Shown here: in pieces, positions 5,097 through 27,940 of the stretch
How the letters are laid out: the number at the start of each line of letters is the position of its first letter
How positions within the stretch are numbered: position 1 is the first letter of the stretch
IMG/VR virus record: IMGVR_UViG_3300020180_000093
Coordinates: 1-29,519 of that record
Direction: 5' to 3' (one strand)
From: a virus
DNA: 29,519 nucleotides
Program-made: the position numbers and the translations under genes
The notes under the pieces: generated by a model
Databases searched by the model: none
Seen by the model: only the letters and a program-made list of their open reading frames with translations
Told to the model about the DNA's origin: nothing

Positions 5097-5923
5097 AACC
5101 CACTCCATGTTACTACTTGGCTGTTAAATGTCACGACCTGTCCGCGATAGGTCACAATGTCGCTTGCCCCGCTGCCTGACTTGGCGAGGACTTCCTGTGC
5201 TGCCAGTACCTCATTAATGGTGATTGCCGTCATGCCGTTGTAGAGCTTGACCCACCCCGAAGCGAACCGCCCCGGCTGAACGGTTTTGATGAGATTCACA
5301 TTAAACACATCCTTCAGCGTCAAATTGGTGTTGAAGGTTGTCCCGGTGGTGTAATAGAGCGTCCCCGTTGCCGGGTCAATCTCGACCAGTATTCCCACAG
5401 CCAACCCAACAGTGACGGGGATATCGGCGGTAAAGTCTTTCGTGTCCCGGTTGAGGACAAGATAACGTAGGTTGCCCAGCGTGTACGCTGCCTCAGAGAC
5501 AATACAGCGCATGACGACTGGATACATCGGACGCAGCAGCCCTACATCGAATTGTGAAATGTTGATCGGGCGCTGTGGACGCACTGGTACACCTTCGCGG
5601 TAGAGCGCATCTTCTGGCGCGCGTCCGACGATGGTTAGCCCTTTGGCTGAAGGCTTGACCGAGACAAAGCAGTTTGGGACAATTTCCTCCGAAGTCAGCG
5701 ACACGTTAAGCGCGGGTATCGCTTCGCCGTCGAGCGAGTTAGATGTGTATGGACGCACCCACACCATGCCGGGGATTTCGGGATTAGGGACATAGACCTG
5801 AACAGTGCCATCCGTCAGCACTCGCCCAACACGATAGGTCTTTGCGGTTTCAATATGCGTCGACCAAGTGTCGCGGGCGGCGACGTACATCTCTTGCAGG
5901 TCGCTTTCATTTAGAATACTCAT
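5093..5923 (-). CDS. Tail tip structural protein
   Basis: A 276-residue protein of mostly beta-strand character (GRVLTDGTVQVYVPNPEIPG, SLTSEEIVPNCFVSVKPSAK). It ends with a small repeat-like tail, TYRGQVVTFNSQVVTWSGL. No named family is recognised. It lies between the large hub protein and the fibres, with ATGA overlaps on both sides, so it is co-translated with them and most likely a tip or baseplate component. The start at 5923 is chosen because it forms ATGA with the hub gene's stop; the longer frame from 5989 would put 22 extra basic residues inside the hub gene. Confidence 0.55.
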   Translation of the reverse strand: MSILNESDLQEMYVAARDTWSTHIETAKTYRVGRVLTDGTVQVYVPNPEIPGMVWVRPYTSNSLDGEAIPALNVSLTSEEIVPNCFVSVKPSAKGLTIVGRAPEDALYREGVPVRPQRPINISQFDVGLLRPMYPVVMRCIVSEAAYTLGNLRYLVLNRDTKDFTADIPVTVGLAVGILVEIDPATGTLYYTTGTTFNTNLTLKDVFNVNLIKTVQPGRFASGWVKLYNGMTAITINEVLAAQEVLAKSGSGASDIVTYRGQVVTFNSQVVTWSGL

Positions 5924-8900
5924 GGTGTTTTCTCGATCAATATAAGGGCGTTTTCGATGCGGCCTACCTGCCCCACGTTCTGCAACCATGTCCCAATACG
6001 CGGCTCAAACGTACTCAGATCATCAATAGAGATGTCCAGTTTATTGTCCCCGCCCGCGACGAACACACCCGCCTGTAAGCGCTTGAGCCAGTTATAATTT
6101 GTGCTGCGTCCCTGCGCCCAAAGGGTGCCACCATCACCAGAACGCCAGAAAGCGCGTGACCCGTCCAGCGCTGTAGCGATCATGCGTAACTCGCTGCCAG
6201 CAGCCGTAAGCGCGAAGGGATGGCGCGGTACTCTTTCTTCTGTCGGGGTAACGTCCGTCCAGATGCTTGAACCGCTGACGCGATACATGCGCCGTCCGGC
6301 CTGTCGTTTGTTGGTGATAATGAGGCTGCCAAAGACGGCTTCAAGTTGGAGTTCTGGAAGTGTCACACTGTTGTTAATCCACTTTCCATAAAGTTCCGTT
6401 GAGTCGCTGAGGAAGCGCACTTCAACAAAGCGCACGTTTTCGATTGGTGTAATGAAGGTTACATTAATCGCCGCCGTGACATTAAACTGCACAAAATACG
6501 GAAACCCAAAGATGGCCGCCGCGCCGATATACGACACGCTCCACGACTGGCTTTTATCGAGTGTGTGGAACTGGACGCGCTGCGAGTATAAGACCTCGCG
6601 CCTACTGTTGAGCATGGTTAGTTCAGCGGTGACATTCACGCGATACGCGCCGTCAATCGTGTTGCCCGGAGGCCAATAGATTGGCGTACCACTAACGCCG
6701 GGCGGGTCCGCAATGACGCTTGGATACAAAAGTTTGGTGGTGAAGCTGCCAATCAGTTGAGACACTGTGTATACCGTCCCTGATTTCTGCTCATCCGATT
6801 GCGCCAGATAATCAACGCCGTACCGAATAGATTGTTGATCAGCGTCGGCCTCATCAGATGACAACGCCAGTTCGGTATTAGGAAGCAGGTCAATCCGGTT
6901 ACCTGTCGGGAAGGTGCTAATTGTGGTGCTGATGGGCGTATCGTCATAGATGTTATACGTCGTAAAGATGTTGCCCGAACCATCTTTCTTGATGGTGGAC
7001 ATGGGTTCACTGCTGGCTTGATCGTCGCCCGGATGATTAGCAATCTCGCTGAACGCTCCCGCTGACCCGGTGGCCTTCATTAACTTCCAGCGTCCGGTGG
7101 CGAGTGTTCCCGGTAGGTAAATGTCACTGCCGGAAATCTCCATACCCAAAGGCATGTTAGCGTTAGCTTCATCTATAAACGAACCTGAACCGACATTGAC
7201 CACTGCCCCCCACGACCCACCGCTGGAACGGCGTTTGATCTTGACACCGAAACTAGACAGATAGGCCACCGCCAGAAAGTAAGGCGCGGTGGTACTCTGC
7301 ACGATTCGGGCGCGTCCATAGAATAAACCTTCGGTGACGATCGTCGTCTGCGTATTCCAGATGGGCGCAGGAGATAGCAAATTAGGACAACTCGATACCG
7401 TGAGCGTTATTCCGCCATCCCATACAACGACCAACACAGACGGATAGAGCAAACCTTTCGACCAACACGCATCAAGGACTTGACCAACCAGCGCTTGAGA
7501 CCCAGAGTCGCGCACACGCGCATAATTCACGACTTCCTCTAAAAAGTTCTCGGAGAGTCCCGGCTCACCGAAGGAGTTCCAAGGCATCGCTAGAGCAAAG
7601 TCTGCACCCAAATTAATTTCCGGCGGATCAGGTGGAAAGACTTGCTCAACGGTATCAATCCAACCGTCCGGGTCAACATACCCACCCGCCCCGCCGCGTT
7701 CGATGGGGAGATAGATTCCGCGTGTGCCGTCGCTTTCAGTGCGGACATTCACAGCGATATCCATCAACCAGACATTGCCCAACTTGCGCCATGTGCGCGT
7801 GACCTGTACCGGACGCACACGAATACCGGTCCCGTCACTACCGCCCCATCGCACCCCAAACCGATCAGGTTCAAACGCAAGATAATCCTCAGGTACGTTC
7901 AATTTATGCCAGTCGTCATCTGCGGGGTCGAAGATGTCCAGCGGCATCAGCAAAGTTAAAGGCAGACTTGCCAGCGGGTTATTGACATAAGCAAAAGCAT
8001 CACCGACTAAAAATTCAAGTTCTGTTTGTCCGCCAGCGGCGGTTACGCTCACGTCGGGAAGGTCGCTCTTGGACAGCCCTTGTCCCTGAGCGCTGCCGGG
8101 TGCCAATGCCCGATAGGTCGAAGGAATCTCCGAGCCATCATGTGAGATACCATCAAGGATGACATGCGCCACGTCCGGCCTCAGTTTTGGCTCAAGCGCC
8201 AGCGGCACACGGACGCTGTTCTCTGTCCAGGTGTATTTGGTATCGAGCGCATTACGCGGCACACCGGGAAGATGGTTCGGCTCACGGACAAAATAGATGG
8301 TGCCATCGCTGCGACAATTGACTTCGCCCGTTGAAATTTCATTCAAGAATTGCAATTGCGAAGCGATGTTTTCAGCGCGAAAGCCATAGGTACGGCGGCG
8401 CAGCCCAAGCAGGTTGGCACTAAAATAAAAGTCATGGTTATAAAGGAAGGTCGCATGATTGCGGAGGATATAATAAGCCGCAAAGCCCGGATGGGTGTAA
8501 GCCGGAGCGACTTGAGTCCATTCCGTCGGCGTTGTGTTTTCTTCCATCAATTGGGTTGCAGTCGGAATACTGCGCGCCAGCTTCAGCGGGCCGTAAAACT
8601 TGAGCGTCACGCTTTTACGTCCGCGCTGGCCTTCGGTGGTCATGTCATCCATGTACCCGACAAAGCTCTTGGTGATAACGCCTTCGGCCAATTCCTGACC
8701 GTCGAAGAGAATGCGATTGGTCAACACGCCCATCATGCCGGGATAGAGCGCGGCTTTCGCTTCACCCTTCACCGTGACCGAAAGTTCACGCCCAATATTG
8801 ACGGAGGCATCCCCACCGATGGCATCCAGTCCATATTTATAATTAAATGGTGCATAAGGACTGGCGGGATTATCCGAGTTGGCAAACAGCCAGCGCCAAC

Positions 8901-17177: not shown

Positions 17178-19343
17178 TTAGGCGATAGTCGTGCTGACGT
17201 TGTATGCAATCGCGGCGGCTTCGTTGTCACGAAACGCCAGACCCCAACGCATATGCGCCACAACCTGAGTTGTATCCGATGCCGGATAGTAGGTCGTAAA
17301 AACCTGCATACGACGCTTCCAGCGACTCGCCCACTGATCGGGTCGCACCAGTAGGATGCGGCCTTTGGTGTTGTTGCCACCCGTCGCGCTGACTTTGCCT
17401 GTGGCATTGCCTTTGCCGAAGAAGCCGGAGCGCACAATTTCAATGCCATAAATCCGACGCAACACACCTTCAACGATGGTGGCCGTCGGGAAGACATCTT
17501 GCGTCTTCAAGATGGCAAGGTTGAGCGCTGCGAAGTACGTTGAATTGTCGATGATGTACAGCACCTTGCTTGGGTCGGTGGCATGTTTACCGTCCACGCC
17601 TAGCAGCGGAAGCAGTGCCAAGAAAATCGTATCTGCCAGCGTGTTAGCTGCGTCAGCGGCATTGGCGGTATTGGTCACCAGCGCCAGTTTCGCCAAACCG
17701 TTCAACAGTGTGTAGGACGGTTTGGAGGGTGCCGTTGCCGGAGTGCCATCGATCAAATTAATGTTCGTACTCGCGCCGGTGGCGGTATCCCCATTAATCA
17801 GGATGCGTTCCATTTGTTCCGCACCACTCACATTGATCTTGCGGTTGGCTTCTCTGACGATGTTGATGATGCTGTCTTCTTCCAGTTCCTGCTGGTAGTT
17901 GAGACGTGTAGACAGCTTGGCGACAGTGACGCTTTTCTGTCCCGTCCCGAATTTTGAAGAGGCCGATGTAGGGGTGACCGTACCGCTACTTGCGTTTTCA
18001 TCTGCCCCCCCGGTGGAAACATACCAATCAGGATCAGCGCCTTCAAGCGGGATGGTTTCAGCTTCATATCCTTGTGGAATTTCGGCTTCATCCATGCCAT
18101 AAGAAAGCATCTTCTGATAGACGGGTGTTTGTTCGCGGATTTGTTCCCACAGTTGAGTCCCGTAGTAATTGAAAACCCACTCGTCGCCAAAACCTGCTGA
18201 ATCAGCAGCCATGACTTCGCTAGCCTTCAAAAACGGGAAGTGACTTTTGACAGCCAGATCATTAGCGGCGACATCGCCTTTTTCGACCAGTTGAGCGGTT
18301 TTATAGGTCATCGCTTTGCGATATTCATCGCTCGTCCGTCCGCGCAGCATCTGATAACCAAGCGCCAAGTCATGGGCGGTCAGTGGGTCAAACTTGCTAC
18401 CAACGGTGATCTGTGTCGGCTTGTTCGCGGGTGGGTTGACCTGTGCGCCAGATGCGCGGCTCGTGCCGCCATGTCCTACATTGGCTTTGATAGCCTCAGC
18501 AATAACGGCATTGGCGCGGTATTTGTTGATGACATCCATCACAGTCTTGATAAAGGCGGTGTTAATCGTCTTTTGCGGAATGATGTCTTCGACATTTTTC
18601 ATCATTTCTTCTTCGGGTAGGGCTGCCTGGGCTACCGGATCGGCTTTTTGTTCGCCGCCCACGCTGCTGTTTGCGGCTTCAACTTGGGTGACGATCTGCG
18701 CGAGTTGTTCCTCAGCAGGTACATCAAGTCCCATAGCGGCGAAAACCGCTAGGACTAAATCACGAATGGTCATGGTCTTTGCTCCTGTTTGCGATTGAGA
18801 TTCGGATGGTGCCGTCTCGCGTTCAGGGTCGCTCTCTGCTTCACCTAAAAGGTCTTCCAGAGTCTTGAAACCGTTAACGCCTCTAATGGCGGCTTTCAAA
18901 TTACTGACATTAGTTCTGCGCGGTTCAGCGGGGGTGGGTGTGAGACTACCTTCGACGATAGGCCACTTCTTAATCCGTCCATCTGCGGCGACTTCCACCA
19001 AATGCGGAAGGCTACCGGACGACCAACCAAGAGCGCCCTTCTCTACGAGGTTGCGGACAGCCCCAACATAGCGGTTACGCATGTCGAGCTGGGCTTCCGC
19101 CCAAAGGCCAACGGCATCTACTTTCAGTGTGTCGATTGTGCCGATGAGCGCTGTCTTAAGTTCGCCGTCGAGTCCGTGATGGTAGAGCATGGGACGCTGT
19201 GCGTACCAATCCAAGCCCAATTCAGTCTCAGGTGTAAAATATTCACCTGTCAGGTCTTTTTGTGCTGGACTGCCGAAGACGACCAGATAGCCGCCGATGC
19301 GATCCCCTGCATCACCCAACATCTTCAAAGCTGGAACTATCAC
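17178..19343 (-). CDS. Fused prohead protease and major capsid protein (HK97-type)
   Basis: A 721-residue fusion. Residues 1-145 form an S78-type prohead protease (YLVVFGSPAQKDLTGEYF), with candidate catalytic His at LYHHG (55/56) and Ser in GWSSGSLPH (108/109/111) followed by the VEGSLTPTPAEPRR motif. Residues 146-300 are a helical, acidic delta/scaffold-like linker. About 330-721 is an HK97-fold capsid protein (GDEWVFNYYGTQLWEQIREQ, INVSGAEQMERILINGDTAT). The start is GTG with GGGGG nine bases upstream, right after a terminator-like hairpin. An internal start at residue 191 could supply capsid protein without protease. Maturation would cut within the linker. Confidence 0.85.
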   Translation of the reverse strand: MIVPALKMLGDAGDRIGGYLVVFGSPAQKDLTGEYFTPETELGLDWYAQRPMLYHHGLDGELKTALIGTIDTLKVDAVGLWAEAQLDMRNRYVGAVRNLVEKGALGWSSGSLPHLVEVAADGRIKKWPIVEGSLTPTPAEPRRTNVSNLKAAIRGVNGFKTLEDLLGEAESDPERETAPSESQSQTGAKTMTIRDLVLAVFAAMGLDVPAEEQLAQIVTQVEAANSSVGGEQKADPVAQAALPEEEMMKNVEDIIPQKTINTAFIKTVMDVINKYRANAVIAEAIKANVGHGGTSRASGAQVNPPANKPTQITVGSKFDPLTAHDLALGYQMLRGRTSDEYRKAMTYKTAQLVEKGDVAANDLAVKSHFPFLKASEVMAADSAGFGDEWVFNYYGTQLWEQIREQTPVYQKMLSYGMDEAEIPQGYEAETIPLEGADPDWYVSTGGADENASSGTVTPTSASSKFGTGQKSVTVAKLSTRLNYQQELEEDSIINIVREANRKINVSGAEQMERILINGDTATGASTNINLIDGTPATAPSKPSYTLLNGLAKLALVTNTANAADAANTLADTIFLALLPLLGVDGKHATDPSKVLYIIDNSTYFAALNLAILKTQDVFPTATIVEGVLRRIYGIEIVRSGFFGKGNATGKVSATGGNNTKGRILLVRPDQWASRWKRRMQVFTTYYPASDTTQVVAHMRWGLAFRDNEAAAIAYNVSTTIA
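18773..18786 (-). promoter_or_regulatory. Internal ribosome-binding site and start in the protease-capsid fusion
   Basis: On the minus strand AGGAG (18786-18782) lies eight bases before an in-frame ATG (18773) that begins MTIRDLVLAVFAAMG at residue 191. This falls just after the protease domain and a Ser/Glu/Gln-rich linker, so it would yield a 531-residue scaffold-capsid product. Internal starts of this kind are known in lambda C/Nu3. Confidence 0.5.
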
Positions 19344-19493: not shown

Positions 19494-19865
19494 TCAACCA
19501 CATCTCGCTCTCACCTTTTTTAGATTAGCAGCGTAGTAAAGGCGGTTTTTCTCTCTCACCTTTCCCGAGTTAGCAGCCCGCCAGACGCGGTTTCTCTCTC
19601 TCACCTTTTCCGAGTTAGCAGCGTAATAGCGTCGGTTTGCCTCTCTCACCTTTTCTAGATTAGCAGCCTGCCAGACGCGGTTTCTCTCTCTTTCCTTGTC
19701 TGGATTAGCAGCCCGGTACACGCGATTGTACTCTCTCGCGCACTCTTTGCACTCTGATCGTAATCCATCTTTTTTCGTGCTGTGCCGCGAAAACGCGCTC
19801 ACCGCCTTCGTTTCCCCGCATTTCGCACACCGCTTACTGGTAACGGTTATCTCGTCTGCGCTCAT
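19494..19865 (-). pseudogene. Truncated paralogue of the repeat-rich HNH endonuclease
   Basis: A 123-residue reading frame nearly identical at its start to the intact gene upstream (MSADEITVTSKRCAKCGETK; C13, C16, C39, C42 zinc ribbon). It then has five 15-residue repeats, ending in KVRARCG at a stop. The HNH domain is absent, and the following 30 bases lead straight into the capsid promoter, so it looks like a decayed or partial duplicate. The duplication includes 5' flank: GGGTTGAAAGCAGG precedes both starts. I start at 19865 to match the intact copy. A functioning zinc-ribbon-only protein is not excluded. Confidence 0.6.
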
Positions 19866-19935
19866 CCCCAACCTGCTTTCAACCCATCATCTCTATCATG
19901 GTAGCCTGCACACCGATTTCAACTACATCTCGCTT

Positions 19936-19964
19936 GACCGTCTGCGCTGTCCGCCTTGACGGTC
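19936..19964. repeat. Inverted repeat between the two HNH frames
   Basis: GACCGTC (19936-19942) pairs with GACGGTC (19958-19964) with a 15-base loop, just past the stop of the HNH gene at 19967. It may be a weak terminator or a trace of the duplication; no U-run follows. Confidence 0.4.
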
Positions 19965-19966
19965 AG

Positions 19967-20962
19967 TCATGCGACTTCCTTATCCTTTGCTTTTACCAAT
20001 TCAAAGTATGCGTTGATGCGCTGCAAGATTACTCGCGCCTTCCGTTTGCCAAATTTCAGGGCAAGCCACACTTCTGGCATAGCGTTATGCTTGGAATTAT
20101 TGCATCCGTCCTCACCGTGACATAGAGGCACGATGTTATCCGCTGTCGTCCCGCCGCCTTTGGTGAGTGGTATCCAGTGATCGGCGGAAGCGGTGTGCGT
20201 GACGAATAAATCCTTTAACGGTCTATCGCATACCGCGCAGTAGCCATGAAAGTAATCAATGGCATATTGCCATTCGGCGGTGGTCAAGGTGTTGGGGAGG
20301 TTAGCTTTACGGGCGCGGCGGCGCTGGCTGTGAACCCGCACCTTTTCCGGGTTAGCAACCTGCCAGACGCGGTTTTTCTCTCTCACCTTTTCTGGATTAG
20401 CAGCGTAGTAAACGCGGCCTTTCTCGTTCAACTTTTCTGAGTTAGCAGCGTAGTAAACGCGGCTTTTCTCGTTCACCTTTTCTGAGTTAGCAACGTAGTA
20501 AACGCGATTGTACTCTCTCACCTTTTCTGAGTTAGCAGCGTAGTAAACGCGTTTTCTCTCTCTCCCCTTTTCCGGGTTAGCAGCGTAGTAAACGCGGCCT
20601 TTCTCGTTCAACTTTTCTGAGTTAGCAGCCCGGTAAACGCGATTGTACTCTCTCATCTTTTCTGGATTAGCAGCCCGGTAAACGCGGTCTGCCTCTCTCA
20701 CCTTTTCTAGATTAGCAGCCCGGTAAACGCGGTCTGCCTCTCTCACCTTTTCTAGATTAGCAGCCCGGTAAACGCGATTGTACTCTCTCATCTTTTCTGG
20801 ATTAGCAGCCTTGTAAACGCGGGCGTACTCTCTCGCGCACTCTTTACACTGGTAAAGTAATCCATCTTTTTTCGTGCTGTCCCGCGAAAACGCGCTCACC
20901 GCCTTCGTTTCCTTGCATTTCGCACACCGCTTGCTACCAACAATTATCTCGTCTGCGCTCAT
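19967..20962 (-). CDS. HNH endonuclease with zinc ribbon and 11 tandem repeats
   Basis: A 331-residue protein. Residues 11-46 form a zinc ribbon (CAKC at 13-16, CKEC at 39-42). Residues 48-212 are 11 tandem 15-residue repeats of the form RVYRAANPEKVREYN. Residues 215-300 are an HNH domain: C242/C245, DH at 261-262 (ADHWIPLTKGG), N275 (ADNIVPLC), C281, C286 and SKHN at 290-293. The fold is of the homing/endonuclease VII-like class, which cut or nick DNA. Free-standing HNH genes near terminase and capsid often act as selfish elements or aid packaging. It follows the LexA-N-like gene by 21 bases; the ribosome site (AGG) is weak. Confidence 0.8.
   Translation of the reverse strand: MSADEIIVGSKRCAKCKETKAVSAFSRDSTKKDGLLYQCKECAREYARVYKAANPEKMREYNRVYRAANLEKVREADRVYRAANLEKVREADRVYRAANPEKMREYNRVYRAANSEKLNEKGRVYYAANPEKGRERKRVYYAANSEKVREYNRVYYVANSEKVNEKSRVYYAANSEKLNEKGRVYYAANPEKVREKNRVWQVANPEKVRVHSQRRRARKANLPNTLTTAEWQYAIDYFHGYCAVCDRPLKDLFVTHTASADHWIPLTKGGGTTADNIVPLCHGEDGCNNSKHNAMPEVWLALKFGKRKARVILQRINAYFELVKAKDKEVA
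20327..20821. repeat. 45-base tandem repeats coding for the HNH repeat region
   Basis: Eleven head-to-tail 45-base units, with a nearly constant block around TTAGCAGCCCGGTAAACGCG on the plus strand and variable ends. A second array of five units lies at 19497-19721 in the truncated paralogue. Unit-to-unit identity is high enough for slippage or unequal exchange, so repeat number probably varies between strains. Confidence 0.85.
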
Positions 20963-21263: not shown

Positions 21264-21742
21264 TCATCAAGCGACTCTTGGACGATCATAGGCCACATCT
21301 CAATGATGTTGTCCTCAAGTTCCGCGCCGATATCTAATGCGATGTTTTCAACCACAGGCCATTTGTTTAAAAACGGCTGCTGATCTGGACCGTATACATA
21401 ACGCGCTTGAGGCGCTGCGTTCTCAACATTAATGGTCACGTCGCCACTGTTGAGGTCGATACTTGTCTCCCAACCTTTCGCCAATGCTCCTGTGCGTCGG
21501 TATGGGAGATTGTTCTCTTTACGCAGCTTTGCCATCACATAGCGCCGCTGACGCTCACTCGCCCACCGAATAGGATAATCCGGTTTTGGCGGCGTATACC
21601 GCAATCGTCGATCTAGCTCACGTTCCAGCGGCGGGATGATGACACGCGCCACTACGCGGTAGATTTTGCGCGCTGCTTTTTTCTCAAGGCCGCGTAGTGC
21701 TTCTGCAAGACCGGACGAAACGGAAAGCGAGATGTCAATCAT
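21257..21742 (-). CDS. gp10-like head-tail morphogenesis protein
   Basis: A 161-residue protein. The N-terminal helix (SGLAEALRGLEKKAARKIYR) followed by beta hairpins (YRRTGALAKGWETSIDLNSG, VTINVENAAPQARYVYGPDQ) has the look of the HK97 gp10/neck or virion-morphogenesis family, in which an initial helix and an RTG...W...V turn are typical. It overlaps the portal stop as ATGA with GGAGGCGG upstream, so I start at 21742, not 21790. Its position before rather than after the capsid gene is unusual; the accessory insert 21238-19494 now separates it from the rest of the neck genes. Confidence 0.5.
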   Translation of the reverse strand: MIDISLSVSSGLAEALRGLEKKAARKIYRVVARVIIPPLERELDRRLRYTPPKPDYPIRWASERQRRYVMAKLRKENNLPYRRTGALAKGWETSIDLNSGDVTINVENAAPQARYVYGPDQQPFLNKWPVVENIALDIGAELEDNIIEMWPMIVQESLDEN

Positions 21743-24654
21743 TCGGTGACCGCCTCCGGCGCGGGTTGCGAGTCGGGAATATCCGGCCATTCGCTGAGAC
21801 TGTCATAAGCAGCCTTCGCCCTGCCCCGCGTCGTGTATTCGAGAGGATTAAAGTTTACGGGTTCATCGGTGTCGTCAAGCTGGCAGTTACAGTTCCATTG
21901 GCCGCAAGCGTGACGATTTGAAACGCCGGAGCGTGGCGACCATCCCGACTTATTCCAATCATCCCGGGTTGCAATTTTACCATCCAAAAACGCACAGTCC
22001 GCACAATGTTGGATTGTGCCACCAAGGCGGAAGACTGATTTTTGACCCGGATTAGCGCGAGCCTTTCCTTCATCGTAAATGCGGTCAAGGCTTAGGTTTG
22101 CCCATAACTGCGCTCGTGTTCCTACTTCTGTTTCGGTTAAGCCAGAGGTATACATCTCCGCGCCAAGATTAGTGACACGACTACTTTGCTCACTTAACCA
22201 ATCACGGAACACCGCTACATCGTCGGTGGATAAACTCTCGCTGGTCATGCCGCCCGATTCTAAACCATCACGGAAAGCAATCAATCCGTAGCGTCTTAGT
22301 TCCGAGCGCATCCGAGACGCGAACTGGCGACGGTTAACCTCATTGTTTCGACCCGACTCGAAGAGTGCCACAAAGGTATCAATGAACTCGCTGCGGGTGG
22401 TCGTGTAGGCTTTGATAGTCGGGCGCGGGAGCAATGCCTCACGCAACTCAACATAAATATCCCACAGTTCCAGCCCCTTGCGAGCGGCCTCAAACACCGC
22501 ACTCATGGCGGGTTTGTCATTGGCTGCGTCTAGGCTGGCTTGAATGCTCTTGACCAATTCGGGCGGAATGATGTCCGTCCCGAATTTACGGACGTTGGAT
22601 TTACCTGCGCGTTTTATCTCAAACCGCTGCCACTTGAGCAGCTCATCAAGCACAATCGTAGACTTGGCGGTGATGTCTTCGACTGGCGCTGGTTCGTCGT
22701 CTGGTTCGGGCGTAGGGTCGTCCGGCTGTTCGCCAATCGGTAACTCCTGAATGATGGTGTCGTCTACACCGATCTGCAAGCTAACAGGGGATACGCTCAA
22801 CTTAGGATTAAACGGTACAGCGCGAGGCCGTTCTTTCGCTTTACCCATCGTGATATGTGGTACATAGTTGACCGGATTACTGTAGGTACTCATCTGTAAA
22901 CCGTCATCGACGCACAGATCATAAAGTGTTTCTTGCAGGTCGCGCAGATCGGGGTTACTGCCCTTCAAACGAAAATGAATCGCGTGACTGCCTAGACTGT
23001 CAAACGTCCTCAACGAACCGATAGGAAGACTTAACGTAGGTAGTTCAAGGGTTGCAAGTGTGCTTTGCAGCGCCTTAATTTGTTCATCTGTCGCAGCGGG
23101 GATATGCACGAGCGCGACATGAAAGGTGTCTGCCGCGTTCCATTCAACTTGTGCATCAGGAAGCAGAATTTTAACCTGCCCTTGCAGCGCGATCAAATCA
23201 GGGCTGTTTTTGAGAGAAAGCGTCAGATAGAGAGACTTGCCCGCTGGTGGCGTGACATCCTTGTCCGCTGTTGCTGGTGCAGGGAGTTGCGGTACAACGG
23301 GCGGCGCTTCTAATACAGGCTGTATAGGTGTAACGTCAATCGTTGGTGTAGCCGTTGCCAGCATCCCGGCGTGTGCTGCGTTCTGGATAATCTCAGGCGC
23401 ACGTTCTAAATCCTCAATCTGAACAATGATGGTGCCGGGCTTGAACACAAGAAAGTCACCACCGGGTAAAGGTTTATAGCCTTCTTTTTCGCGCCGCTCG
23501 TTGAGGGTGATAACCCCATCGTTGTACTGCACACTCAGGATGTCGGTCTTTTCTTTGGTGTTGTGGATCAATCCCAACACCTGCTCGGACTCGAAGCACA
23601 GTTCAGATGTAGGGTCGAGCCAAGGCATGACCACCGCATTGTAGAACATGGCGATTTCTTCCGCGTCGGGGATGGCGACCATCTCCCAAAAGTTCGCCGT
23701 CTGTGCATCCATCGTGGAGCCTGCGCTCAACGGGTCACTTACACCCCCTGCTCCCGCCATCGACATAGGCACACGAAACGCCGCGCATATTTTCTTGGCG
23801 GTGCTTTCTTCGTTGTCCTTCTGGCTCGTGGGTGGCTCTGCACCCATCTTGATGTACTCAAGCGCCCAGGGCAAGAGGATTGTGCTAAAGGCATTGTCTA
23901 CACCTTTAGTCTGTTCAGCGAATTGTGTTTGGATAAGTTGCGCTTGGTTTTCATCTACAACCGTGCCATCGCGTCCGACAATGATGCCGCCCGGCGTTGC
24001 GTCGTTTTTGTAAAAGGATTTGATAAAACGCTCGATGTTTCGGTCAATGTTGACCGACCCCAAAGCGACCATCAGCGGCGACTTGCCACGCATGTCGTCA
24101 GAGGGGCGCATCAGTTTATGATACGCAATGTCATCAAGACCGTAGAATACCATGCCGCCCCCGCCGCTGTAGTCGTAGCGGATGATCTCACCCATCATAA
24201 CGAAAGGCGCGGTTACGGCGGGATTCAACCAGCGCAGCCCACCGGGGATATGAGTATTTCCTATCTGCATTTTTTCAAGATAGACCTCACCCCAGATCAT
24301 CAGGCTTGCCATATGGTTGTAAATAATGTTTTGCTGCCACTGTAAATAGGCTTGGTCGAAGGCTTTTTGAAATGGCGAGTTAAGGATCGGCTCGCCCGTA
24401 TATTTATTTTTGATCGTCCGTTTGAAACGACTTACGGCCTGCGCTCGAATGTGGATGCAGACATCAGCCCAAACAACCGCTTCGGCGGCGCGAGCGAGAT
24501 CGTCCGGCGATAAGTCGAAGTCCTTAAGCTGCTGGCGTATGCGATAGCCACTTTCATAACCGCCGCGCGCTCGGCTGTTCTGTTTAGCCAACATTAACCC
24601 CGCAGTGATAAATGCGCGCGAGGCTTGTGTCTGGAGTCTTTGTAATGGTCCCAT
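21739..24654 (-). CDS. Portal fused to a 2H-phosphoesterase-like domain and a MuF-like C-terminus
   Basis: A 971-residue protein. Residues 1-420 are a portal (SPDDLARAAEAVVWADVCIH, GDFLVFKPGTIIV). A Pro/Ala/Val linker leads to 472-640, a 2H-phosphoesterase-like domain: TFHVALVHIP (H512; the Thr/Ser of HxT replaced by Ala 514) and YVPHITMGK (H600, T602 intact). Residues 665-930 resemble the MuF/phage-head-morphogenesis type, with a Cys-rich end (HCADC at 883-887, ACGQWNCNC with C917, C922, C924). The start at 24654 shares TAATG with the terminase stop; GGGAA lies upstream. The portal would form the DNA-entry ring. The MuF part usually sits inside the head. The 2H part suggests an RNA- or cyclic-nucleotide-related activity, which is inference. 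Confidence 0.8.
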   Translation of the reverse strand: MGPLQRLQTQASRAFITAGLMLAKQNSRARGGYESGYRIRQQLKDFDLSPDDLARAAEAVVWADVCIHIRAQAVSRFKRTIKNKYTGEPILNSPFQKAFDQAYLQWQQNIIYNHMASLMIWGEVYLEKMQIGNTHIPGGLRWLNPAVTAPFVMMGEIIRYDYSGGGGMVFYGLDDIAYHKLMRPSDDMRGKSPLMVALGSVNIDRNIERFIKSFYKNDATPGGIIVGRDGTVVDENQAQLIQTQFAEQTKGVDNAFSTILLPWALEYIKMGAEPPTSQKDNEESTAKKICAAFRVPMSMAGAGGVSDPLSAGSTMDAQTANFWEMVAIPDAEEIAMFYNAVVMPWLDPTSELCFESEQVLGLIHNTKEKTDILSVQYNDGVITLNERREKEGYKPLPGGDFLVFKPGTIIVQIEDLERAPEIIQNAAHAGMLATATPTIDVTPIQPVLEAPPVVPQLPAPATADKDVTPPAGKSLYLTLSLKNSPDLIALQGQVKILLPDAQVEWNAADTFHVALVHIPAATDEQIKALQSTLATLELPTLSLPIGSLRTFDSLGSHAIHFRLKGSNPDLRDLQETLYDLCVDDGLQMSTYSNPVNYVPHITMGKAKERPRAVPFNPKLSVSPVSLQIGVDDTIIQELPIGEQPDDPTPEPDDEPAPVEDITAKSTIVLDELLKWQRFEIKRAGKSNVRKFGTDIIPPELVKSIQASLDAANDKPAMSAVFEAARKGLELWDIYVELREALLPRPTIKAYTTTRSEFIDTFVALFESGRNNEVNRRQFASRMRSELRRYGLIAFRDGLESGGMTSESLSTDDVAVFRDWLSEQSSRVTNLGAEMYTSGLTETEVGTRAQLWANLSLDRIYDEGKARANPGQKSVFRLGGTIQHCADCAFLDGKIATRDDWNKSGWSPRSGVSNRHACGQWNCNCQLDDTDEPVNFNPLEYTTRGRAKAAYDSLSEWPDIPDSQPAPEAVTE

Positions 24655-26075
24655 TATCGTTTCCCTTGCCTCAGCACCGTAACACTCGCTACGGGTGCGG
24701 TATTCGCGCCATGCCACGCTAAGGCATTGGCTATAACAAAATCGTCGTGTTCGCCGTCTGGGGCGCTGTATTGCCACACGCCCGTAATCGTTTGCTTGGC
24801 GGTGAAGGCTTGCATCTCCCGGCGCTGGTCGGGAATGTTGAGCAGCTTCAAGTCGCCCATGTGCAGCGCTTCATGCAGCGCGCCCATGATCTGCGCTTTG
24901 CTGGATGCGCTGGTGGTAAACGCCTTCACCGAAGTCTTACATTCGGCGGCGCGCATCTCACTTTGAAGCGCCTCAATATTGGTGCTGCCCATACTGTTGC
25001 GTTCCGCGACCAACGTCACCACGTTCCAGCGTTTGAGTTTCGCCACGATCTGCCGCCGCATCTCTGCCCAAGGCAAGCGGTTAATCCGCAGCACATCGAC
25101 CTGCCGCATGGTGACCAGATCAATGACGGATAACACGGTGTAATCGACAGTCTGCGCGAAATCGAGTCCGGCGTAGTGGCGTCCGTCGCCGGGTTCGACA
25201 CCATTCGACGCGCTGAACACTCCGGTCAGGTCTCCAAAGTAACCACCGCCCGACAGCAGGAAACATGACCGCGCATTCTCAGGATAGGCTTGGAGAAAGC
25301 GATGCTTTAATTCGAGTTGCTTACTGCGTCGCCACTTGATCTGCTCCGGCGATAGGTTATAGAGGTCAATCACTTCTAATTCTTCGTCGGTGTACTCAAT
25401 GTCTTCGCCGCGCCTAAGCGATATGCAGTAGGCCGGATCGCTGAACCAAGGATAGAAATGCAGCGACCACGCGCTATCTCCATCCATAGCGCTCATACAA
25501 GCATTGTAAAACCAACCTTGTGCGCCGTTGGGCGTGGACTCCAGCACAATCCATGAGGGATTTCCGCCCTGCATGATGCCTTCCATCAATGACTCGGCAT
25601 CCTTCCAATAGGCGACCTCTGAACCGTGAATATGGGAGTAGGTGCCGCCGCGCCCGGTGTGGACGTTGCCAGCCGTGATGATGACCGCCTCGCTATCCAG
25701 ACCCGGATAGGTCGTCACGGTGGCGTTTGCATAGTGACGTTTGGGGCGAAAGCCAGTCGGGAGATTGTTGTAGAACCGGTCTTTCATGCGTCTCAGTTTT
25801 TGAGTGCTTTCATCGTCATGGGAGAGTGTCGCCGTCGTTGCCGTCCGGGTCGTCTCATATCGGAACATCTCACCCTGAATGGCGGTTGAAAATCCCAACT
25901 GTCGCGCCTTCAGGACCAGATCGCGCCGGGTGCGGTGGGCTAGGTAATGTCTTTGTGCGGCGTTGTGCCGAAACCTGACCAACTGTTTTTCTTTGTTCTG
26001 GACGTAAAGAAATGCCTCGGCAAAGAGCGACGCATCATTGGCGACTTCGACGGGTGTAGGCATGGCGCGAACCAT
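24654..26075 (-). CDS. Terminase large subunit
   Basis: A 473-residue packaging motor. ATPase: Walker A-like KARQLGFST (56-64), Walker B-like HIHGSEVAYW (148-157), and coupling motif LESTPNG (179-185). Nuclease (RNase H-type): GLDFAQ (D305), AERNSMG (E358), and EHDDF (D444/D445). This set is typical of a complete TerL, so DNA cutting and ATP-driven filling should both work. The start at 26075 overlaps the small-subunit stop by one base (TGATG) and is preferred to 26105, which lies 30 bases inside that gene. Next to the portal, as usual. Confidence 0.9.
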   Translation of the reverse strand: MVRAMPTPVEVANDASLFAEAFLYVQNKEKQLVRFRHNAAQRHYLAHRTRRDLVLKARQLGFSTAIQGEMFRYETTRTATTATLSHDDESTQKLRRMKDRFYNNLPTGFRPKRHYANATVTTYPGLDSEAVIITAGNVHTGRGGTYSHIHGSEVAYWKDAESLMEGIMQGGNPSWIVLESTPNGAQGWFYNACMSAMDGDSAWSLHFYPWFSDPAYCISLRRGEDIEYTDEELEVIDLYNLSPEQIKWRRSKQLELKHRFLQAYPENARSCFLLSGGGYFGDLTGVFSASNGVEPGDGRHYAGLDFAQTVDYTVLSVIDLVTMRQVDVLRINRLPWAEMRRQIVAKLKRWNVVTLVAERNSMGSTNIEALQSEMRAAECKTSVKAFTTSASSKAQIMGALHEALHMGDLKLLNIPDQRREMQAFTAKQTITGVWQYSAPDGEHDDFVIANALAWHGANTAPVASVTVLRQGKR

Positions 26076-26569
26076 CAGTCTTTGCCTCGCATCACATCTT
26101 CCCATGTCAGGCTAACATCGAATGACGTAGGCTCACCGAACTCCAGTCGCGTTTCCTTCATGATGGTTGCGGCTGCTTGAGCAAGGTCTTTGAGGTCTTT
26201 CATCGAAAGTTTGGCCACCTGTTCCTGCTGCGCGGTAATGACCTTGCCCAAGATCGATTGAAGCGCTCGGATAGTCACCTGACGCAGTTCGACAGCACGG
26301 GCGCGGTCTGTCTGGCGCTTCTGATCTTCGGCGGCGCGTCTTTCTTCCCGTACAAATTCGTCCCACGCTTCGGCGCGGGATTGCCAGTTCCATAGATCGG
26401 ATGTGTCACGCCAAGGTTTCGGGATGGCTTTAGCGGCTGGCTTGCCCAAGTCGCTGCGCTCGGCATTGTAGACAGCCTGCTTTGCTCGGTTCGACCCTAG
26501 CAGGCGATAACGTTCAAAGCGATCAAACCAGTTGCCCGGCTCGTCCGACTGCTGATCCCATAGGTTCAT
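26075..26569 (-). CDS. Terminase small subunit
   Basis: A 164-residue protein directly before TerL. The N-terminus (WFDRFERYRLLGSNRAKQAV, RDTSDLWNWQSRAEAWDEF) carries the helix-turn-helix-like sequence and W...RA.AWD stretch common to small subunits of this phage type. A charged helical region and an oligomerisation-like C-terminus follow. It would bind the packaging site and load TerL. The ATG overlaps the methyltransferase stop as ATGA, so the two are probably translated together. Confidence rests on motif and place. Confidence 0.75.
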   Translation of the reverse strand: MNLWDQQSDEPGNWFDRFERYRLLGSNRAKQAVYNAERSDLGKPAAKAIPKPWRDTSDLWNWQSRAEAWDEFVREERRAAEDQKRQTDRARAVELRQVTIRALQSILGKVITAQQEQVAKLSMKDLKDLAQAAATIMKETRLEFGEPTSFDVSLTWEDVMRGKD

Positions 26570-27888
26570 GAGCCGCGCTCCACTGTTAATCCCATGAGAG
26601 TCAAGCGTTCCAGTGTGCAGGCGACGTAGACGGGCGATAGCTCTACCCCACTACCCAACCGCCCCCGCGATTCACAAGCAACGATGGTTGTGCCTGTACC
26701 GCAGAAGGGGTCAAGCACACGCTCGCCCCGGTTGGTAAAGTTCGTGATGAGGTGCCCAGCTACATCAAGCGGCATGGTCGCGGCGTGTAGATCGGCAAAT
26801 TCGTTTTGACGCTGTGCCGGAGCAGCGAAGACATTATCGACAGTGCCGCGAAAGTCCTTTGTGCCAATGGCGCGTGTCGGGTATTTCGACTGGCTCAGGA
26901 CATGCACATACTCAAAGCCGGAATTAATGACCCGTTCCGCCATAGCAGGCTGTGCGTTGTCCTTCGACCAGATGAGGGTATCGGCGTAGTGCGCTTTGAA
27001 CGTGTAGAGATAGTCGATTAAGGCCAGCTTGTTACCAGCCAATGATTGAATGTTGATGAATAGCCATCGCGCATAGGGTATCGCCGACTGGGTGAAATCG
27101 ATCAGCAGCCGCAGGTAGTCATCGACGGATAACGCATCATCGCCGCCAGCGACATACTTAGTATTGTCGGTGTGGGTGTTTCCAGACAGGCTTTCACTCG
27201 ATCCGGCGTTATAAGGCGGACTGGTTAGGAGCATCGAAGCAATAGAGTTATCGACGGCTCGGCATACATCGTCAGATTGAGTCGCATCGCCGCAAACTAA
27301 TCGGTGAGTACCAGAAACGCTTTGACTTGCAATCAGCCACAGGTCACCGGGTTGCACATCATACTTAGCGACTAGCTCCTCACCGCGCATCGAAACGGCT
27401 GGCGCATCGCGTTTAGCTTCATCGGCGCTCATGTCATCGACCAATGCCCGAAGGTCGTTTAACGCGCTGTCGTCGAAGCCAACCGCCAGCCGCACATCGC
27501 CCACCATCGACTCCAGGTACTCTAGCAAGAGTCGATCATCCCGCACCGAAGACCGGGCGATTTCATTATCGGCAATCGCAAATGCGACGGCCTCAGACTC
27601 GGAGAGATGAGAGATGTCTACCGTGTCGATAGACCATGCACCGTTATCGACATGCACATTCTGCGGCGGGTAGCTGTGATCAAGGCCGGGGCGCGCCCCT
27701 TCTGACTGAATCAATCGAAGGGCTAAAACCGTGTGATTGTTGGCTCTAACATGCACATCACGCCAGATGCGCGGCGCATTGTTGAATCCAAAATGGCGAA
27801 TGCTTAACGCAATCGCTTCAACGTCACCCCTATTATAATTTTCCGGCCACACTATGAGGCCGTTTAGCATACATCTTGTCATCGGCAT
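26566..27888 (-). CDS. ParB-like/DNA methyltransferase fusion (beta class)
   Basis: A 440-residue protein. Residues 1-150 match the ParB/Sulfiredoxin-like domain often fused to phage methyltransferases (LNGLIVWPENYNRGDVEAIA, then the NNHTVLALRLIQ stretch). The catalytic half has motif IV TSPPYN (222-227) before motif I LDPFCGTGTT (392-401), the beta-class order. SPPY is more usual for N4-cytosine, though N6-adenine is possible. It would modify phage DNA, perhaps against host restriction, and lies directly before the terminase. The ATG at 27888 is preferred; ATG 27882 and TTG 27891 are in frame. A TTGACA promoter lies 50 bases upstream. Confidence 0.85.
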   Translation of the reverse strand: MPMTRCMLNGLIVWPENYNRGDVEAIALSIRHFGFNNAPRIWRDVHVRANNHTVLALRLIQSEGARPGLDHSYPPQNVHVDNGAWSIDTVDISHLSESEAVAFAIADNEIARSSVRDDRLLLEYLESMVGDVRLAVGFDDSALNDLRALVDDMSADEAKRDAPAVSMRGEELVAKYDVQPGDLWLIASQSVSGTHRLVCGDATQSDDVCRAVDNSIASMLLTSPPYNAGSSESLSGNTHTDNTKYVAGGDDALSVDDYLRLLIDFTQSAIPYARWLFINIQSLAGNKLALIDYLYTFKAHYADTLIWSKDNAQPAMAERVINSGFEYVHVLSQSKYPTRAIGTKDFRGTVDNVFAAPAQRQNEFADLHAATMPLDVAGHLITNFTNRGERVLDPFCGTGTTIVACESRGRLGSGVELSPVYVACTLERLTLMGLTVERGS

Positions 27889-27940
27889 CAACCGTCTTAA
27901 TTTTGTCTTACATCTATTTTAATAGAACAACCGTCCTAAT
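27889..27940. repeat. Direct repeat near the methyltransferase start
   Basis: CAACCGTCTTAAT (27889-27901) and CAACCGTCCTAAT (27928-27940) differ by one base, 39 bases apart. One covers the start region of the methyltransferase, the other its promoter spacer, so they may be binding sites of one regulator, possibly the methyltransferase's own N-terminal domain. Confidence 0.6.

Follow-up and report, generated by a model that had tools for sequence, protein, structure and literature searches.

Why should a phage portal protein carry a 2H phosphoesterase-like domain inside its own chain, and what might this domain do? The question came from a stretch of 29,519 bases (GC 53%) of a virus record, called hereafter the window, in which a preliminary description had read one open frame as a portal, a domain with two His motifs and a Cys-rich, MuF-type C-terminus. 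The assignment of residues 472-640 to positions 22735-23241 of the minus strand, counted from ATG 24654, was correct, as were the motif coordinates, the frame and the order of the parts. The features used below are the following.

17178..19343, minus strand: prohead protease-major capsid fusion of the head operon (PF04586, PF05065, alignment with contig L075)
21739..24654, minus strand: portal-2H-MuF-like fusion gene, 971 aa from ATG 24654, stop at 21739
21865..22653, minus strand: helical MuF-like tail, residues 668-930 (family models built in this analysis)
22654..22734, minus strand: acidic Pro-rich linker, C-terminal to the 2H domain (sequence)
22735..23241, minus strand: 2H phosphoesterase domain, LigT/ThpR-like, residues 472-640 (TIGR02258, AlphaFold, Foldseek)
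22846..22857, minus strand: second motif H600-I-T-M, intact (alignment)
22975..22977, minus strand: H560, third histidine, invariant in 19 relatives (alignment)
23110..23121, minus strand: first motif H512-V-A514-L (sequence, relatives)
23242..23430, minus strand: Pro/Ala-rich linker from portal to 2H, residues 409-471 (sequence)
23479..24459, minus strand: HK97-family portal domain, residues 66-392 (PF04860, TIGR01537)
24654..26105, minus strand: large terminase, directly upstream of the fusion gene (PF17289 E=3e-9, phrog_2 E=8e-24)

The fusion gene lies in a minus-strand head operon that reads methyltransferase, small terminase, large terminase, fusion gene, neck-like protein, HNH gene with repeats, and protease-capsid fusion. 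Its ATG at 24654 adjoins the terminase stop and is preceded by AAGG 9 bases upstream; the open frame itself extends upstream to GTG 24777. The portal was readily recognised N-terminal to the 2H domain, as described, by PF04860 (E~8e-34, 117.7 bits, above the cut-off of 39.1), phrog_2662 (E=1e-38) and TIGR01537 (E=8e-23). The protease-capsid protein scored 21.9 bits with PF04586 (cut-off 21) and E=5e-4 with PF05065, and aligned with residues 204-952 of a protein of L075 (E=2e-70, 781 columns). Most related phages of this group likewise have the prohead protease and the major capsid protein in one frame. Elsewhere in the window, a gene next to the terminase genes (26566-27891) joins a ParB-like domain to an N6/N4 DNA methyltransferase, and region 19494-20962 holds, besides a short related frame, the adjoining HNH gene (19967-20962), in which a 15-aa repeat (VYRAANPEK...) occurs many times. 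Because this region aligns in multiple registers, the number of repeats probably differs between the window and its twin contig, L001. PADLOC returned zero hits on the window.

Is the middle domain a genuine 2H domain? TIGR02258, the model for RNA 2′,3′-cyclic phosphodiesterases, matched it with E=1e-10, at 41.8 bits compared to an equivalog cut-off of 65.7, and was also matched by 19 of 19 aligned members of the family. PF13563 gave E=3e-5 in the window (24.6 bits, slightly below the Pfam cut-off of 27), and 17 to 18 of the 19 relatives matched PF13563 and PF02834. Judged by these scores, the domain is a relative of the LigT/ThpR family that the TIGR02258 cut-off leaves outside the filed members. 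A profile of the 19 relatives matched drCPDase by sequence, both HxT motifs being in register. An AlphaFold model of the domain, built from four sequences, reached a pLDDT of 86 and a pTM of 0.83. Its best PDB matches by Foldseek were E. coli LigT/ThpR (TM 0.72, E=2e-7) and then D. radiodurans CPDase, with AKAP18, Acb1 (rank 29), viral 2′,5′-phosphodiesterases and Usb1 lower down; with a probability of 1.00 to LigT, CPDase, AKAP18, Usb1 and Acb1, the predicted fold is that of 2H proteins, a duplicated alpha-beta unit. In the model, two strands equivalent to the catalytic strands of LigT begin with H512 and H600, respectively; in LigT, strands 2 and 6 have the catalytic residues at their start (PMC5283653). 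Curated models, AlphaFold and Foldseek results, and relatives together put the 2H call beyond chance.

LigT/ThpR (5ldm from E. coli, 5h7e from D. radiodurans) is thus the best match in both sequence and structure, with the same fold and with paired strands that each start with an HxT motif. It is, however, a free-standing cellular enzyme, whereas the domain studied here is part of a phage portal and, in the window, has T514 replaced by alanine. Acb1 was considered as the nearest relative and rejected, as LigT/ThpR was favoured by the Foldseek rank and by TIGR02258. It has the 2H fold and the HxT/HxT tetrad in common with the family, but is free-standing and smaller, and its fold match to the window is weaker (TM 0.52, query-normalised). 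The Acb1 model, PF23474, had zero match in the window and sub-threshold matches in a few relatives. A single-sequence structure model of the 2H domain and tail together had a pLDDT of 35 and was discarded.

The C-terminal part is less easily named. A Cys cluster is present (C884/C887/C917/C922/C924), but the window tail found no match in Pfam, PHROG or NCBIfam, and PF04233/TIGR01641 (MuF/SPP1 gp7) was matched neither by the window nor by most relatives. A recognisable MuF/SPP1-gp7 tail, which is a different tail type, occupies the same place in a few relatives, and a profile comparison of the window-type tail with classic MuF was weak (probability 40%). On this evidence “MuF” appears to be the weakest part of the preliminary description: the Cys pattern stands, the model match does not. 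In one relative (L006, 4588-7740), the 2H domain and the tail are set apart by an additional insert, which contains Cys and is about 120 residues long.

How widespread is this arrangement? A scan of 2.9 million viral contigs, queried with the 2H domain, yielded about 30 contigs with the window order portal-2H-tail in one frame, a few of them truncated by a contig end or near-identical. A search of 84,980 bacterial and archaeal genomes revealed no relative of the 2H domain, and one of 50,697 annotated phage records none with a meaningful E-value; a match in Phabba (E=0.06), to a separate gene annotated RNA ligase, was not counted as a relative. When 19 of the proteins were aligned, all columns invariant over the whole protein fell in the 2H domain (W505, H512, L543, G546, S547, F551, H560, L570, P599, H600 and T602, each in 19 of 19), so that both motif histidines are conserved in homologues. 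T514 was present in 18 of the 19, the window being the sole exception. Mean pairwise identity was 40% for 2H, 24% for the portal and 26% for the tail, in a sample gathered via the 2H domain and hence biased toward 2H conservation; neither of the two main scans searched for the pattern of the first motif, which limits this bias for motif 1. When the portal was used for scanning, only the twin and contig L019 were close, the remainder having about 25% identity and no 2H; no empty site (a portal without 2H) was found in a near relative in that scan. In L016 (4510-8046) and L017 (4414-7884), a second 2H-like segment without the histidine motifs follows the first (profile E=3e-5, probability 73%); its sequence makes it a probable degenerate duplicate.

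The HVAL form of the first motif had been read as a hint of a binding role or of altered specificity. Base 23115 is C in the window and T in L001, a contig from another metagenome that is 99.3% identical over 9.6 kb, so that the window codon is GCG (A514) and that of the twin ACG (T514, motif HVTL). This codon change is the only difference between the two across the 507 bases of the 2H domain. In the other domains, motif 1 is HxT or HxS in 46 of 46 rows, or 33 of 33 distinct domains when window and twin are counted once; the window itself has HxA first and HxT second. As far as these comparisons go, A514 is either a derived change found in the window only or an error. Being private to the window, it is uninformative on the family, and altered specificity or binding only is not a family property. 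A degenerate first motif as a family trait was therefore rejected, given the HVTL of the twin and the HxT/S of all other domains. In Acb1, the active-site tetrad includes Thr46 and Thr115 (PMC9117128), and by analogy T514A probably weakens catalysis in the window copy, unless it is an assembly error. Over positions 21739-24777, window and L001 differ by 13 amino-acid-changing and 9 silent codon differences, a rather high share of the former.

We compared the histories of the three modules. By portal and tail, the contig nearest to the window is L019 (42% and 49% identity, tree support 100/99 and 99/99). The window 2H is nearer to that of L008 (52%), but portal and tail of L008 share only 20% and 22% with the window. 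A grouping of the window with L019 was rejected weakly by the 2H data (AU p=0.065 with 17 rows, 0.023 with 34 rows), and a grouping with L008 was rejected by the portal data (p=0.007). Contig L017 combines an L016-type portal (L017 with L021 rejected, p=5e-9) with another tail (L016 with L017 rejected, p=1e-5). From these sequence comparisons, modules have likely been exchanged among these phages; for the window's own 2H, exchange is suggestive, since the L019 2H is a long branch.

The domain also occupies other places. It lies between two tail parts (portal-tailN-2H-tailC) in L059 and L063-L065, and C-terminal to the tail (portal-tail-2H) in L062. In L075, a 954-aa protein (5651-8515) with an N-terminal 2H followed by protease-major capsid is encoded directly downstream of a 2H-less portal-tail gene. 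In L073 (5669-7321), and likewise in L074, an N-terminal 2H belongs to a 550-aa protein that also comes after a 2H-less portal-tail gene; the partner domain in L073 is protease-like by eye only. In the 2H tree, each placement is set apart from the rest by a single branch. When only the tail was used as query, 17 contigs were returned, with 2H in the same protein in 11, in the next gene in 3 and nowhere in the covered stretch in 3. Portal-tail fusions of the same kind thus exist without 2H (L067, L080) or with it in the next gene (L073-L075), which indicates that the portal-tail protein can exist without 2H and that the portal needs no 2H in place. Where present, the domain sits in a head gene, with the single exception of L060/L061. 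In L061 (4782-10340) it lies close to the N-terminal end of an open frame, 1853 aa or longer, that may encode a polyvalent protein. From this distribution, the 2H domain looks like an enzyme cassette targeted to the head. It is doubtful, in our estimate, that such a cassette settled at several points of head polyproteins, is freed in the procapsid by the maturation protease, and then either leaves the head together with the genome or counters portal- or capsid-sensing defences at the site of assembly.

Overall, the best explanation, to which we give a probability of about one half, is a portal-held 2H phosphodiesterase that blunts a nucleotide-activated defence. Fold, motifs, fusion order, catalytic conservation and occurrence at several head-protein sites were computed; position inside the head, activity, substrate, release and delivery are what we infer. 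The domain would be a metal-independent phosphodiesterase of the LigT/ThpR branch, made within the portal subunit and held at the portal vertex inside the head, in up to 12 copies per head if all portal subunits are full length. The C-terminal side of this portal class and MuF-type proteins face the head interior. SPP1 gp7 is a MuF-type example of this position (PMC5576092). The substrate would likely be a small nucleotide or an RNA-end phosphodiester (2′,3′-cyclic, 2′-5′ or cyclic oligonucleotide), the LigT-like sequence favouring 2′,3′-cyclic or 2′-5′ bonds, and its hydrolysis would blunt the host defence; a 2H tetrad, that of Acb1, is able to destroy CBASS signals (PMC9117128). Two routes may be envisaged. 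The head protease might free the 2H domain from the portal for ejection with the DNA: an S78-type protease encoded in the same operon is a candidate for this release, and Pro-rich linkers flank the domain. Alternatively, the domain may act in the infected cell before or during assembly, in which case release would be unnecessary. Separate translation of the 2H-tail part was rejected, as no internal start with a Shine-Dalgarno or ribosome site for it was found in the fusion gene; covalent fusion to the portal without such a start implies that proteolytic release is needed, or that the domain acts in assembly. Against this best explanation, the LigT/ThpR-like sequence would suit RNA-end chemistry as well, and the window copy lacks T514.

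RNA-end chemistry might indeed be the function: the domain would open 2′,3′-cyclic phosphates at the cuts made by host nucleases that attack anticodons or mRNA (RNases of toxin or defence systems), as a step in RNA repair. Its nearest families are RNA 2′,3′-cyclic phosphodiesterases (TIGR02258 in 19 of 19, LigT/drCPDase), but the window proteins scanned gave no match to an RNA ligase or kinase, a head-bound location is odd for a repair enzyme, and Iyer et al. (PMC5512222) remark that 2H domains of this sort do not occur together with RNA ligases; we consider this function unlikely. Catalysis could also be dispensable, the 2H fold serving as a nucleic-acid-binding module that aids packaging or holds nucleic acid. 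The long retention of 2H between portal and tail, the missing T514 and the second 2H-like segment devoid of histidine motifs in L016/L017 are in line with such a structural role, which we nevertheless find quite improbable, for both HxT motifs are conserved far more than the portal body, and similar phages lack the domain or encode it in the next gene. Finally, the window copy could be a decaying or inactive enzyme (T514A) kept by its linkage to the portal, which would be compatible with a defence-blunting enzyme in the rest of the family. A single derived change at a tetrad position, and more amino-acid-changing than silent codon differences from the twin over the open frame, point in this direction; the change is nevertheless the sole difference in the domain, no other part of the active site is altered, and a single wrong base in assembly or sequencing may account for it. 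Decay is possible, though on balance somewhat unlikely.

Fusions of 2H domains to MuF or portal are in print (Iyer et al. 2017, PMC5512222, section 20; Iyer et al. 2022, PMC9503650, section 21), with the proposal that the domains act as RNases or destroy nucleotide signals of the host; both the kind of fusion and the proposed use are those considered here. These sections name MuF or portal partners, and the triple order, the other placements, the 2H-protease-capsid protein and a 2H domain better conserved than its carrier are absent from them. What the present analysis adds to that text is the family itself, with its triple order, its conservation pattern and its further placements, among them the one in the capsid polyprotein. 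The triple fusion had been called unfamiliar; 2H-portal/MuF fusions as such are already published. The suggestion of a head-borne enzyme acting on nucleotide signals or RNA ends agrees with the published proposal, although the closest enzyme is LigT/ThpR, and not Acb1. The observation itself is confirmed, and its interpretation is partly supported. In MuF toxins and SPP1 gp7 (Jamet et al. 2017, PMC5576092), a head protein associated with the portal likewise bears an enzyme domain; in that case the toxin belongs to a separate MuF protein whose gene follows that of the portal, whereas here the enzyme stands between portal and tail in one chain.

The family provides a clean test set, with catalytic motifs intact: some portal-tail proteins lack 2H, and elsewhere it is encoded one gene further on or as part of a capsid polyprotein. 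If the enzyme works, a counter to a nucleotide alarm would sit in the protein complex with which infection both begins and ends, and the answer to that alarm could be present before any phage gene is expressed.
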